Shown here piece after piece: positions 42,703 to 47,525 of a DNA stretch of 64,000 nucleotides. The notes under the pieces are model-generated. The model was not told where the DNA came from. It searched no databases and saw only the letters and a program-made list of their open reading frames with translations. Source of the stretch: Sandaracinus amylolyticus (GTDB taxonomy: Bacteria > Myxococcota_A > Polyangia > Polyangiales > Sandaracinaceae); the NCBI RefSeq assembly GCF_000737325.1, contig NZ_CP011125.1:8556001-8620000 (forward strand). Reading direction: 5' to 3'. Numbering within the stretch: position 1 is the first letter of the stretch; the number at the start of each line of letters is the position of its first letter. The position numbers and the translations under genes were made by a program.

Positions 42703-43830
42703 TCATCGGTCCGCCTGGCGACAAGCCTGCCCTCCGAACCGCAGCGTCCCGATCTCGCACGCGGCCTCGCAGATCCCCGGGCAGAACGACGTGTCGCCGT
42801 CGACCAGGCCGCACACGTCGGGCGGCGACTCCGGCTCGCAGCGCACGCACTGGATGTCGTTCGCGACCAGGCTCGCGACCCCGCACAGCGCGCTGTCCGC
42901 GATGCGGCTGCGCAGCTCGATCGTCGTGCCGCCGAACGCGCACTGCGCGTAGTACCCCCACTCGCCCTCGAGATCGCCGCGGAACGCGCTGAGGTCGGCC
43001 TCGACCTCGTCGAGCACCACGCGCCCTTCGCACGCCGCGATGCGCGACGCGGCCAGGTGCACGCGGCTGAGCAGCGCATCGCCGCACCGAGCGAGCTCGC
43101 TCCGCAGCCAGTCGCCGCCACCCGCGGCGAGCTCGTCGATCGCGAGCGTCGCGTCGACGAAGTCCGCCCCGATCAGCTCGGCGCGTGTGGCGCGGACGAC
43201 GCCGTCCGAGATCGCACCGCGCTCCAGCGCGAGGTGCGCGACGTCGATCCGCGCGACATCGAGCTTCGCCTCGCGCAGCCGCAGCACGCCGTGCGGCGAC
43301 GTGATCGCCACGTCGCGGTGCTCGCCGCCCTCGACGTGCACCTCGAGCGCCTCGATGCGAGCACGCTCGAGCTCGGCGCCCGCCGTCGCGATCACGACCG
43401 CTCCCTCGCCGACGATCGTCGCGTCGACCACCCGCGACACCTCGAGCCGCACCTCGACCGGGCGCGATCTTCCGTGCACCACGACGTGTGCGTCCTCGAG
43501 CGACGCTCCTTCGAGCGCGATCACGAGCGGCGCCTCGCCCGGCGCGACCTCGATCGTGAGCTCGGTGCACGCGACGCTCGCTGCGTCGATCCGGGTGTCC
43601 TCGCTCACGTCGAACGTCGTCGGAGCGAGCCCGTCGCGACATCGCGGCGCGGGATCCGCCGCTTCGGTGACGTGCCCCGCGATCAGCTCGTCGAGCATCG
43701 CGCACTCGACGAGGCGCACGCACGGCGGGACGTCCGTCGGCCCGCCCGGCGGAACGCGCGACGACACCCACGGCTCGATCGCGTCGCACCCCGCGAGCAC
43801 GAGCACCACGAGCGGCACGAGGCGCCTCAT
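42703..43830 (-). CDS. lipoprotein of unknown function (375 aa)
   Basis: ATG at 43830 overlaps the OmpA-like gene's stop by ATGA. The signal ends VLVLAGCDA, a lipobox. The mature part is a string of short beta strands with regular ELERARIEALEVHVEGG and VARIDVAHLALERGAI steps that suggest a right-handed parallel beta-helix. The C-terminal 60 residues are Cys-rich (CVRCEPESPPDVCG, CPGICEAACE). Coupled to an OmpA-family protein, it may be an outer-membrane partner. Confidence 0.8.
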   Translation of the reverse strand: MRRLVPLVVLVLAGCDAIEPWVSSRVPPGGPTDVPPCVRLVECAMLDELIAGHVTEAADPAPRCRDGLAPTTFDVSEDTRIDAASVACTELTIEVAPGEAPLVIALEGASLEDAHVVVHGRSRPVEVRLEVSRVVDATIVGEGAVVIATAGAELERARIEALEVHVEGGEHRDVAITSPHGVLRLREAKLDVARIDVAHLALERGAISDGVVRATRAELIGADFVDATLAIDELAAGGGDWLRSELARCGDALLSRVHLAASRIAACEGRVVLDEVEADLSAFRGDLEGEWGYYAQCAFGGTTIELRSRIADSALCGVASLVANDIQCVRCEPESPPDVCGLVDGDTSFCPGICEAACEIGTLRFGGQACRQADR

Positions 43831-44912
43831 CGCGCGCCCTCCTCGGTGGGCGTCTGCTCGAGCTCGAGCCGGATCGTCACCCGGCGATCGGGCGCGAGGG
43901 TCGCGACGTCGTCGCTCCCGCCCTGCACCAGCGGGCGCGTCGTGCCCTCGCCGCGCAGCACCATGCGCGCGCGATCGACGCCGTGCGCGACGAGCCACTG
44001 CGCGACGACCTCGGCGCGACGCATCGAGAGCGGCAGGTTGACCTCGGGCGTGCCGGTCGTGTCGGCGTGGCCCTGGAGCACGATGCGAGCGCTCGGGTCG
44101 GCGGCGATCACGCGCTCGAGCACGTCGTGCATCGTGACCTCGCCCGCCGCGGTCAGCGCCGACTCGCCGTGCTCGAACAGCACCGGCGGCACGAGCATGA
44201 CGACGTGGAGCGAGCGCGTGGGGATCGCGCGCTCGAGCAGCGCGTCGAGATCCTCGCTCGGCGGCGGCGGCGGCGGTGGCGACGGCGACGGCGGCGGCGG
44301 CGGTCGCACCCGCACGCGTCGCGGCGGGGGCGGAGCGGGAGGCGGCGGCGGCTCGGGCGCGCGCACCATCGGTCGCCACCAGAGGCCGAGCCCGGCGCTC
44401 AGGAAGAGCGCGTCGTCGCTCTGGTCGACCCCGTCGTTCTGCATCACGTGCAGGAGCGACACCTCGGCGGACACCGCGAGCTCGTCGTCGAGGTGCAGCG
44501 CCGCGCCGAGCGCGAGCGACGCGGCGGGACGGATCAGCGTCCCGGTGAACGCGACGCCGAGCCCGATCACCGCGAACGGCGAGACGTCGTCGATGCGCGG
44601 CGCGATGCGCGCGGCGAGCAGCGCGTCGATCGCCCCGCCCGGCCGCTCCTCCCCCGGCCCGACGAGCGAGCCGCCGAGGCTCATCTCGCCCTCGAGCCAG
44701 TCGACGCCGTCGAAGGGCCGTCCCGCGCCCGAGATCCGCAGCGTCCCACCCCCGCCGTCGAGCGCGAGGACGTCGCGCTGATCGGCGGAGATCATCAGTC
44801 CGCCCGAGATCGATCCGCGGAGCGCCCAGCGCGCCTCCACGTCGTCGGCGAGCGCGGGTCGCGAGACGACACACGCCGAGAGCGCGAGCCCCGCGCAAAG
44901 CCATCGCACCAT
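43827..44912 (-). CDS. OmpA-family outer-membrane/peptidoglycan-binding protein
   Basis: 361 aa, ATG at 44912. Signal peptide with cleavage near RPALADD. An N-terminal beta-barrel (LRGSISGGLMISADQ, FAVIGLGVAFTGTL) is followed by a Pro-rich linker near 180-215. The OmpA/MotB C-terminal domain comes last, with VLFEHGESALT, VLQGHADTTGTPEVNLPLSM and RRAEVVAQWLVAHGV. The Asp and Arg that clamp diaminopimelate in this family are in the GHADTTGT and RRVTIRL segments. It would tie the outer membrane to peptidoglycan. Confidence 0.92.
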   Translation of the reverse strand: MVRWLCAGLALSACVVSRPALADDVEARWALRGSISGGLMISADQRDVLALDGGGGTLRISGAGRPFDGVDWLEGEMSLGGSLVGPGEERPGGAIDALLAARIAPRIDDVSPFAVIGLGVAFTGTLIRPAASLALGAALHLDDELAVSAEVSLLHVMQNDGVDQSDDALFLSAGLGLWWRPMVRAPEPPPPPAPPPPRRVRVRPPPPPSPSPPPPPPPSEDLDALLERAIPTRSLHVVMLVPPVLFEHGESALTAAGEVTMHDVLERVIAADPSARIVLQGHADTTGTPEVNLPLSMRRAEVVAQWLVAHGVDRARMVLRGEGTTRPLVQGGSDDVATLAPDRRVTIRLELEQTPTEEGAR

Positions 44913-45459
44913 GCCCGCGGTCGTCGTAGCCGCCCGGAGTTTCCACCCGGTGCTCCGACCCACATCGCGTCGCGCGCCTGATACCACCGGAAACCGCCAC
45001 GATTCCGACCCCTTCGAGATTCTCCGTCGGTTCCGGCACTTGTTCCGTCGTTCCCCCGACCTCCTCCACGCGTCCCACGACGTCCTCCACGCGCAGCACG
45101 ACGTCCTCCACGCGCAACGCGACGTCCTCCACGCGCAACGCGACGTCCTCCACGCGCAACGCGACGTCCTCCACGCGCACGGCGACCTCTCCCGCGCCTC
45201 GCGCGACCTCTCCCGCGCCTCGCGCGACCTCTCCCGCGCCTCGCGCGACCTCTCCCGCGCCTCGCGCGACCTCTCCCGCGCCTCGCGCGACCTCGCTCGC
45301 GCATCGCGCGACCTCCTCCGCCCGACGCGCCGTCGCCCCCGCCGTCGCCGCCGCACCCGCCGTCGCCGTCGCCCCCGCCCTCGCAGCGCGCGCCGCGCGC
45401 GCGCTCAGACGTCCTTCGACGTGCACACCTTGTTGCGCCCGCCGCGCTTCGCCGCGTAG
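44911..45459 (+). CDS. possible heptad-repeat protein (182 aa frame)
   Basis: A plus-strand frame runs through the 21-bp repeat array and reads as perfect heptads, first D-V-L-H-A-Q-R and then D-L-S-R-A-S-R. The codons inside the repeats are nearly all GC3. This frame fits the local codon bias better than the minus-strand frames, where EVARGAG-type heptads use two A-ending codons per unit. The N-terminus is doubtful: ATG 44911 overlaps the OmpA start. The C-terminal end overlaps the 3' end of the GGDEF gene. It may be a small coiled coil or merely open repeat sequence. Confidence 0.3.
   Translation: MPAVVVAARSFHPVLRPTSRRAPDTTGNRHDSDPFEILRRFRHLFRRSPDLLHASHDVLHAQHDVLHAQRDVLHAQRDVLHAQRDVLHAHGDLSRASRDLSRASRDLSRASRDLSRASRDLSRASRDLARASRDLLRPTRRRPRRRRRTRRRRRPRPRSARRARAQTSFDVHTLLRPPRFAA
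45058..45330. repeat. 13 tandem 21-bp repeats in two subfamilies
   Basis: Units 1-6 (45058-45183) follow GACGTCCTCCACGCGCAACGC. Units 7-13 (45184-45330) follow GACCTCTCCCGCGCCTCGCGC. Every unit is exactly 21 bp, so all frames stay open. Units 3-5 are identical and units 7-11 are identical. The array lies in the 492-bp gap between the OmpA-like and GGDEF genes. Confidence 0.92.
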
Positions 45460-47525
45460 AGCGCCTTGTCGGTGATCTCGAACAGCTCCGCGCCGCTCTT
45501 CGCGTCGCGCGGGTACGTCGCGACGCCGATCGAGCACGTCACCTTGAGCTTGCCGAGCTCGGTCTGGAACACCGTCTTGCCGAGCTCCTCGCGCACCCGC
45601 TCCGCGAGCAGCACCGCGCCGTCGGTGTCGGTCTCCTCGCAGAGCACGCAGAACTCCTCGCCGCCGAAGCGCGCCACACGATCGGTCTCGCGCTTCATCT
45701 TCATGAGCAGCTGGCCGAGCGCCTTGATCACCACGTCGCCGGTCGCGTGCCCGTACGTGTCGTTCACGCTCTTGAAGTGATCGATGTCGGTCACCAGCAG
45801 CGAGAGCTTCCGCTTGAAGCGCTCGGCGCTGCGCATCTTCGCGTCGAGCTCCTCGAGGAACGCCCGCTTGTTGAGGCAGCCGGTCAGACCGTCGGTGGTC
45901 GCCATCTCCTCGAGGCGCTTCACCGCGCGCGCGTTCGAGAGCGAGATCGCGATCTGGTTCGCGAGCACCTGCAGCGTCGGACGCGTGAAGTCGGGGAACG
46001 CATCGGGCCGCTGGGCCGCGACCGCGAGCGTGCCGATCGCGTCCTCGCGCACCACGAGCGGCAGCACGAGCACGCTCTTCAGCTCGGGCAGCTTCGCCTT
46101 CGTCGTGAAGAGCGTCTGCTGCCGCGCATCGAACTCGCCGCGGTACGGCAGGTAGTGCTTGTTCTTCACGACCATCGCGGTGAGCGACGCGTTGTCGCGG
46201 AACGCCAGCCCGCTCACGGTCTCGCTGCCCTCGCCCACCGCGCGCAGCACGTGGTGCTGCTTCTTCTCGTCGTCCCAGCGCGTGATCGCCGCGAAGTCGT
46301 AGCGCGCGATGCTCGTCGCCGCGCCGAGGCCCGCCTCGATCACCTGGTCCTCGCTGAGCGCGCCGCCGAGCGCCTGCGACGCCTTGAAGAGCACCGCCTG
46401 TTCGCGCTTGCTGCGCTGCAGCTGCACGAACACGCGCTCGTTCGTCAGCGCGCGCAGCACCTGGCCGATCGCGCTCTTGAGCAGCTCTTCCTCGCGCGCG
46501 GTGAACGGCCGATCGTCGACACGATCCGCGCACAGCGCGCCGCGCAGGTGCCCGTTCTCCATCACCGGCACGCCGCAGAACGCGCGCACCAGCGCGGGCG
46601 AGCGGTAGTAGCAGAGCCCTTTGTACCCGGGCTTCACGTGCTCGAGGTTCATCGTGAGCCCGCGGCTCGCGACCGCGCCCACCGCGCCCGCGCCCGCGTC
46701 GAACGGCCCGTCGGCGACGTCGTCGCTGTCGGTCACGAGCTCGACGATGCGCAGCCGCCCATCGGGATCGCTGAAGAGCAGGATGCACGTGTGCAGCTCG
46801 AGCGAGCGCTTGAGCAGATCGAGCACGTGATAGAGCGCGTCGCGCACTTCCTCGACGCTCGAGCGGAACATGCGCTCGTCGTCGTGCTCCTCGCTGTTGC
46901 CCGCGCTCGGCGCGGCCACGAGCCGGAAGAGCCGCGCGTCCTCCTGCGCCTTCTGCTGCTCCTCCGCGCGCTCCTTCTTGCTGCGCTCGCGCACCCGCGC
47001 GATCTCGGCGCGCGTGAAGAGCAGGTTCAGCACCCCGAAGAACATCACGAAGAGCGCGTGCAGCGCGACGGTGCGCGCCGGCACGAAGGGCTCGCCGAGG
47101 ATCCAGATCGCGCCCTCGAGCGCGATCGCCGCGAGCACCAGCACCGTGCCCATCGGCTTCTTCGCGAACGCCGCGAGGAACGCGACGACCACGTAGACCA
47201 TCGGATAGAGCGGGCCCTCGAGCCCACCGAGCGCCTGCACCGCGGCGTGGGTGCCCGCGAGCAGCATCAGCCCGAGCTCGAGCTCGAGCAGCATCGTCTC
47301 GCGGTGCGCGCCCTCGCGCTCCTGCTGCTCGAGCTTCCACCGCGCGACGCCGCGCGTGATCGCGATCGCCGCGAACGCCGCCGCGACGACGCCGTGCTCC
47401 ACGTCGAGCGCACCGCGGAACACACCGAGCAGATCGAGCGCGATCAGCGCGCCCGCGGCGACGAGCCCGAACGATGCGCGCGCGGTGCGGCGGATGGTCA
47501 GCGCGGCGTGGACCAGCGAGGACAT
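45405..47525 (-). CDS. GAF-GGDEF diguanylate cyclase
   Basis: 706 aa. The N-terminal 175 residues contain several hydrophobic helices (LVAAGALIALDLLGVF, PMVYVVVAFLAAFA), followed by a Glu/Lys coiled linker. Two GAF domains (about 215-360 and 380-525) precede the GGDEF domain. The active site is GGEEF (621-625), and RETD (612-615) five residues before it is an inhibitory I-site, so product feedback is expected. It makes cyclic-di-GMP at the membrane in response to ligands of the GAF domains or light or redox input. The gene stands alone on the minus strand. Confidence 0.93.
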   Translation of the reverse strand: MSSLVHAALTIRRTARASFGLVAAGALIALDLLGVFRGALDVEHGVVAAAFAAIAITRGVARWKLEQQEREGAHRETMLLELELGLMLLAGTHAAVQALGGLEGPLYPMVYVVVAFLAAFAKKPMGTVLVLAAIALEGAIWILGEPFVPARTVALHALFVMFFGVLNLLFTRAEIARVRERSKKERAEEQQKAQEDARLFRLVAAPSAGNSEEHDDERMFRSSVEEVRDALYHVLDLLKRSLELHTCILLFSDPDGRLRIVELVTDSDDVADGPFDAGAGAVGAVASRGLTMNLEHVKPGYKGLCYYRSPALVRAFCGVPVMENGHLRGALCADRVDDRPFTAREEELLKSAIGQVLRALTNERVFVQLQRSKREQAVLFKASQALGGALSEDQVIEAGLGAATSIARYDFAAITRWDDEKKQHHVLRAVGEGSETVSGLAFRDNASLTAMVVKNKHYLPYRGEFDARQQTLFTTKAKLPELKSVLVLPLVVREDAIGTLAVAAQRPDAFPDFTRPTLQVLANQIAISLSNARAVKRLEEMATTDGLTGCLNKRAFLEELDAKMRSAERFKRKLSLLVTDIDHFKSVNDTYGHATGDVVIKALGQLLMKMKRETDRVARFGGEEFCVLCEETDTDGAVLLAERVREELGKTVFQTELGKLKVTCSIGVATYPRDAKSGAELFEITDKALYAAKRGGRNKVCTSKDV

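Follow-up and report, generated by a model that had tools for sequence, protein, structure and literature searches.

Noncoding satellites whose repeat size is constant, at 20-21 or 52 nt, while their sequence varies have been described in bacteria (Subirana & Messeguer, PMC8161180). A unit of 20-21 nt corresponds to two turns of the helix, and binding of nucleoid proteins or production of small RNAs has been proposed for these repeats (PMC8161180). The main text of a 2019 survey by the same authors mentions neither Sandaracinus nor Sorangium nor Myxococcales (PMC6749651). Here we describe a 21-bp repeat array of Sandaracinus amylolyticus, located in a 64,000-nucleotide stretch of contig NZ_CP011125.1 (the window). 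For arrays of 41-43 bp, a class of 22/44 nt that would cover them is said to have been named by Subirana and Messeguer in J. Bacteriol. in 2020. Tandem direct repeats of about 17-22 bp are also found in the iteron arrays of replication origins.

The array resembles the satellites of PMC8161180 in having a noncoding, intergenic, two-turn unit, and in that several unrelated families of the same unit length occur per genome while a given family is confined to one species. It differs from them by its very GC-rich myxobacterial host, by a leader common to the family and by the many 41-43-bp arrays present in the same genomes. Unlike iteron arrays, it exists as three diverged chromosomal copies and has no adjoining rep gene, and its units vary too much to be recognised by a single sequence-specific initiator. 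Protein-coding heptad repeats share with it the 21-bp unit, the open frame and a heptad pattern, here on either strand; however, the array has neither a gene-like codon score nor a consistent start or stop, and is missing in a relative. We consider the array a noncoding intergenic satellite of the constant-repeat-size, variable-sequence class (probability roughly 0.78), based on three dispersed copies with a common leader (A, in the window, B and C), an empty site in the relative G008, the codon evidence, the clustering of repeat periods and the published class. Such repeats have already been described, and it is best read as a new case among them.

The array and its neighbouring genes

The array occupies a 492-bp gap (44913-45404) between an OmpA-like and a diguanylate cyclase-type gene, as originally predicted. 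The features of the locus are:

43827-44912, minus strand: OmpA-family gene (Pfam PF00691, E 5e-16), its start placed at 44912 on the basis of conservation in G008
44980-45057, plus strand: leader common to copies A, B and C, less GC-rich than the array (alignment of the three copies, profile)
45058-45183, plus strand: subfamily 1, six 21-bp units of GACGTCCTCCACGCG type, consensus GACGTCCTCCACGCGCAACGC (TRF, units in register)
45184-45330, plus strand: subfamily 2, seven 21-bp units of GACCTCTCCCGCGCC type (GACCTCTCCCGCGCCTCGCGC) (TRF, units in register)
45328-45384, no strand assigned: short adjoining array of 12/18-bp CCGTCGCCCC-type units, on the GGDEF side of the 21-bp array (TRF)
45405-47525, minus strand: GAF-GAF-GGDEF gene, putative diguanylate cyclase (Pfam PF00990, E 3e-42)

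The 13 units claimed for 45058-45330 were recovered by TRF, which reported a period of 21 and 13.0 copies at 45057-45330. Within the core of the array, identity at a lag of 21 was 0.90, compared with at most 0.49 at any lag from 9 to 63 in 500 dinucleotide-preserving shuffles. Aligned in register, with the first base of GAC at 45058, the units fall into the two subfamilies that had been proposed, units 1-6 being of one type and units 7-13 of another. Five of the seven units of subfamily 2 are identical and two are variants. Taken by itself, the leader of A did not reach significance (p 0.13) as a run of degenerate units.

Homologous copies and orthologous sites

The host genome was searched as one contig of 10,327,335 bases, and two further copies were found:

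C1:3989602-3989840: copy B, 74% identity to A over 239 bp
C1:5999681-6000019: copy C, 68% identity to A

Alignment revealed a leader of about 80 bp preceding the repeats in all three copies, and a profile built from the leader and first units retrieved exactly A, B and C, at E values of 1e-27 to 1e-28. In a comparison of A, B and C, the units share the core GAC-NTC-CTN-C. Later units in each copy are homogenised into copy-specific types, as would be expected of arrays growing by repeated local amplification. A profile search at family and order level, covering 182 other genomes of the order, gave no credible match; other Polyangiales yielded weak matches (E 7e-5 to 1e-3), none of which proved on inspection to contain a 21-bp array. 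A, B and C thus constitute a dispersed family found in the host only.

The closest relative, G008, belongs to the same genus as the host and encodes a GGDEF protein that is 99% identical. At its site A the GGDEF stop and the OmpA start are no more than 45 bp apart, and the array, with its plus-strand frame, is absent. Hence, array A lies between genes that are nearly adjacent in G008, and may change their co-transcription. At site C the array is missing together with a neighbouring 359-aa gene. This gene, which adjoins copy C, is Ser/Asp-rich (L010 2036-3542 vs L123); in G008 an acyl-CoA dehydrogenase-like gene follows almost directly. Both genes flanking copy B are missing in G008, so the empty-site comparison covers A and C. 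None of the relatives searched carries the family, and because the more distant genomes have other sequence after GGDEF, the empty site at A fits either a gain in the host or a loss in G008, neither being proven.

Three dispersed copies with a common leader and an empty orthologous site might also point to a MITE-like non-autonomous mobile element, the body of which happens to be a tandem array. However, terminal inverted repeats were not found, the inverted-repeat scan returning a local palindrome only, and inspection of the empty site revealed no clear target-site duplication. When the leader pattern was searched in 84,980 species genomes of GTDB, just two exact matches were obtained, both in unrelated organisms and taken as chance, and a plasmid and phage search gave no match. 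The copies have moreover diverged by about 27-40%, which gives no sign of recent activity. A mobile element of this kind is therefore highly improbable.

The plus strand of copy A is C-rich and G-poor (GC skew about -0.4), and copies B and C are each flanked by convergent genes and start 20-40 bp past the stop of a gene that is read in the element's plus direction. Both observations would suit an element acting at the RNA level, as a Rho-loading or 3'-UTR region, and B and C may have such a role. At A, however, both neighbouring genes are on the minus strand, making the C-rich strand antisense to them, and this gene orientation is wrong for such a role. The RNA folding z score was about -3.7 on both strands of A, -1.9 for B and -1.0 for C; because it is strong in A and weaker in the others, no fold is common to the copies. 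An Rfam search returned nothing credible. Other arrays of the class likewise do not prefer convergent genes, the host intergenic arrays lying between tandem genes in nine cases, divergent genes in five and convergent genes in two. An RNA-level 3' element is thus an improbable account of the family.

Reading frames through the array

The original prediction treated the array as selected coding sequence, in frame on both strands and translated on the plus strand into D-[VL]-x-[HR]-A-x-[HR] heptads with near-saturated GC3, possibly a small coiled-coil protein. The plus frame is indeed open, from an ATG at 44911 to 45459. That the array stays in frame on both strands is trivial, since all six of its frames are free of stops; for the same reason an open frame in it is no evidence of coding. 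The GC3 of 0.95 is similar to that of genes (0.93), yet it arises automatically, high GC3 and open frame both following from the copying of one very GC-rich 21-bp unit. High GC3 and open frames in GC-rich repeats can hence be misleading as evidence of coding.

Codon usage was scored with a model trained on the host genome. The plus heptad frame scored 0.072 per codon and the in-phase minus frame 0.155, whereas 261 called genes of 300-600 bp had a mean of 0.312 and a 5th percentile of 0.170. Gene-like usage was thus found in neither heptad frame, both falling below the 5th percentile of genes, and gene calling with the codon model placed no gene over the array. Searches of the heptad frames against Pfam and NCBIfam gave weak coiled-coil matches, all under the cut-offs.

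The homologous copies lack the start codon and shared boundaries expected of a coding heptad repeat. The single ATG of the plus frame in A (44911) lies within a CATG that also starts the OmpA gene, and in copy C both heptad frames lack any possible start (ATG, GTG, TTG) in the interval from the preceding stop to the anchor unit. The plus heptad frame has no start or end common to A, B and C, and in the minus frame a conserved stop past the leader is absent from every copy. Over 270 bp, the differences at codon positions 1, 2 and 3 numbered 29, 28 and 24 between A and B, 36, 33 and 40 between A and C, and 31, 29 and 40 between B and C. By these counts, substitutions are distributed roughly equally among the codon positions and show no clear coding pattern. 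The sole part leaning to position 3 is the 75-bp leader, with a mild excess of 33 changes vs 21 and 16. The 21-bp register of the three copies is kept across the 270 bp without an indel, as a coding array would also do.

A small plus-strand protein, as first proposed, is very improbable. It could draw on the open frame, the gene-like GC3 and the somewhat more frequent third-position changes in the leader, but its codon score is under the 5th percentile of genes, a start is lacking in copy C, neither start nor end is common to the three copies, G008 has no array and the protein-family matches amount to weak coiled-coil noise. A coiled coil on the minus strand, with A-A-R-V-E-E-V heptads, whether as a small protein or as the remnant of one, is scarcely credible. 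In its favour, the in-phase minus frame has the more regular a/d heptad and the better codon score of the two, and weakly matched coiled-coil models, those of MCP signalling among them. However, 0.155 still lies under the 5th percentile of genes, copy C again offers no start, no copy has a conserved stop past the leader, and relatives yielded no matches of comparable score.

Judged from sequence, a selected-coding reading of the array is thus not supported: codon scores, substitutions by codon position, starts, the orthologous site and the periods of the class, which need not be multiples of three, all speak against it. The coiled-coil protein becomes very unlikely with it, given heptad frames that score below genes, a copy without a start and an array absent from G008. 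A variable-copy spacer had been offered as the other option, and here the noncoding spacer comes close to the evidence, while the three dispersed copies and the constant-period class lay beyond what had been foreseen.

Repeat periods in four myxobacterial genomes

Four of the five features listed for the class of PMC8161180 were found in the array. Its 13 units of 21 bp fit the unit length of the class, 20-21 nt in tandem and 20-23 nt in the wider survey; gene calls, codon scores and inconsistent starts place it, as far as can be predicted, outside protein-coding genes; and the same repeat size recurs with unrelated sequence in the 21-22-bp arrays of host and relatives. The fourth is the confinement of the dispersed family to one species. 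For the fifth, a short characteristic sequence maintained throughout the repeats of a species, the comparison covered A, B and C, in which the GAC-NTC-CTN-C core recurs.

Tandem arrays were surveyed with TRF in 2.46 Mb from four myxobacterial genomes, comprising 1.264 Mb of the host (about 12% of its genome) and 0.4 Mb from each of three relatives, with genes called by our own codon model. Periods of 20-22 or 41-43 bp were found in 25 of 37 intergenic arrays, compared with 2 of 29 genic ones (Fisher p 6e-7), and the units of these intergenic arrays are unrelated in sequence. Periods not divisible by 3 occurred in 20 of the 37 intergenic arrays and in none of the 29 genic ones. Because a Rayleigh test on the periods did not distinguish 10.5 bp from 10-12 bp, the link to the helix is carried by the clusters near 21 and 42. 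Compared with shuffles, many 41-43-bp units fold better and 21-bp units mostly do not. A profile search with the plus-frame heptads retrieved additional arrays of 21-bp units, differing in sequence, from the host and from other Polyangiales; some of the latter contain in-frame stops. Two arrays in the host have unrelated 21-bp units:

C1:8429660: 13.9 copies
C1:6336966: 12.9 copies, including a frame-breaking 20-bp unit

If the array is a satellite, a seed copy would have been inserted in the host, or lost from the relative, and would then have been extended by complete units, each of about two helical turns, through slippage or unequal exchange; a late local amplification would account for the second subfamily. 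The fixed period would then reflect a constraint at the DNA level, either the duplication mechanism or a protein contacting the helix every two turns, rather than a reading frame; divisibility by 3 would be a by-product, because 21 bp is two helix turns. A broader proposal is that the period of Myxococcota intergenic satellites is fixed at pairs of helical turns (21-22 and 41-43 bp), independently of sequence, by an architectural protein or duplication machinery acting once per two turns, the array being one such lattice. This we regard as speculative and rather unlikely.

Taken alone the array is ordinary, but within its class it makes a clean system: a near-identical relative lacks it at the orthologous position, there are three homologous copies, and the periods of 21-22 and 41-43 bp form a spectrum in one phylum. 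The question why unrelated bacterial satellites have one repeat size thereby becomes testable.

Several other observations concern individual arrays. A 21-bp array of the host (L163 1410-1735, G000:C1:6336909-6337234), in which one unit is 20 bp long, begins just past a gene stop and a perfect hairpin resembling a terminator (GAGGAACG gcag CGTTCCTC). In another myxobacterium, a 21-bp array of 12.4 copies and an unrelated one of 14.3 copies directly adjoin each other head to tail (L166, G159:C20, 2036-2596). Intergenic arrays of 41-43 bp, about four helix turns, are commoner in the host sample than 21-bp ones, and were found in the following tiles:

41 bp: L186, L189, L196, L197, L198, L212
42 bp: L177
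43 bp: L196, L215

The units of several of these show strong dyad symmetry, with fold z scores down to -11 vs shuffles. Finally, two host arrays with periods of 45 and 56 bp (L171 2361-2651 and L172 11090-11346) have the motif CTCAACCACGGTCGG in common, suggesting that they may belong to another dispersed family.
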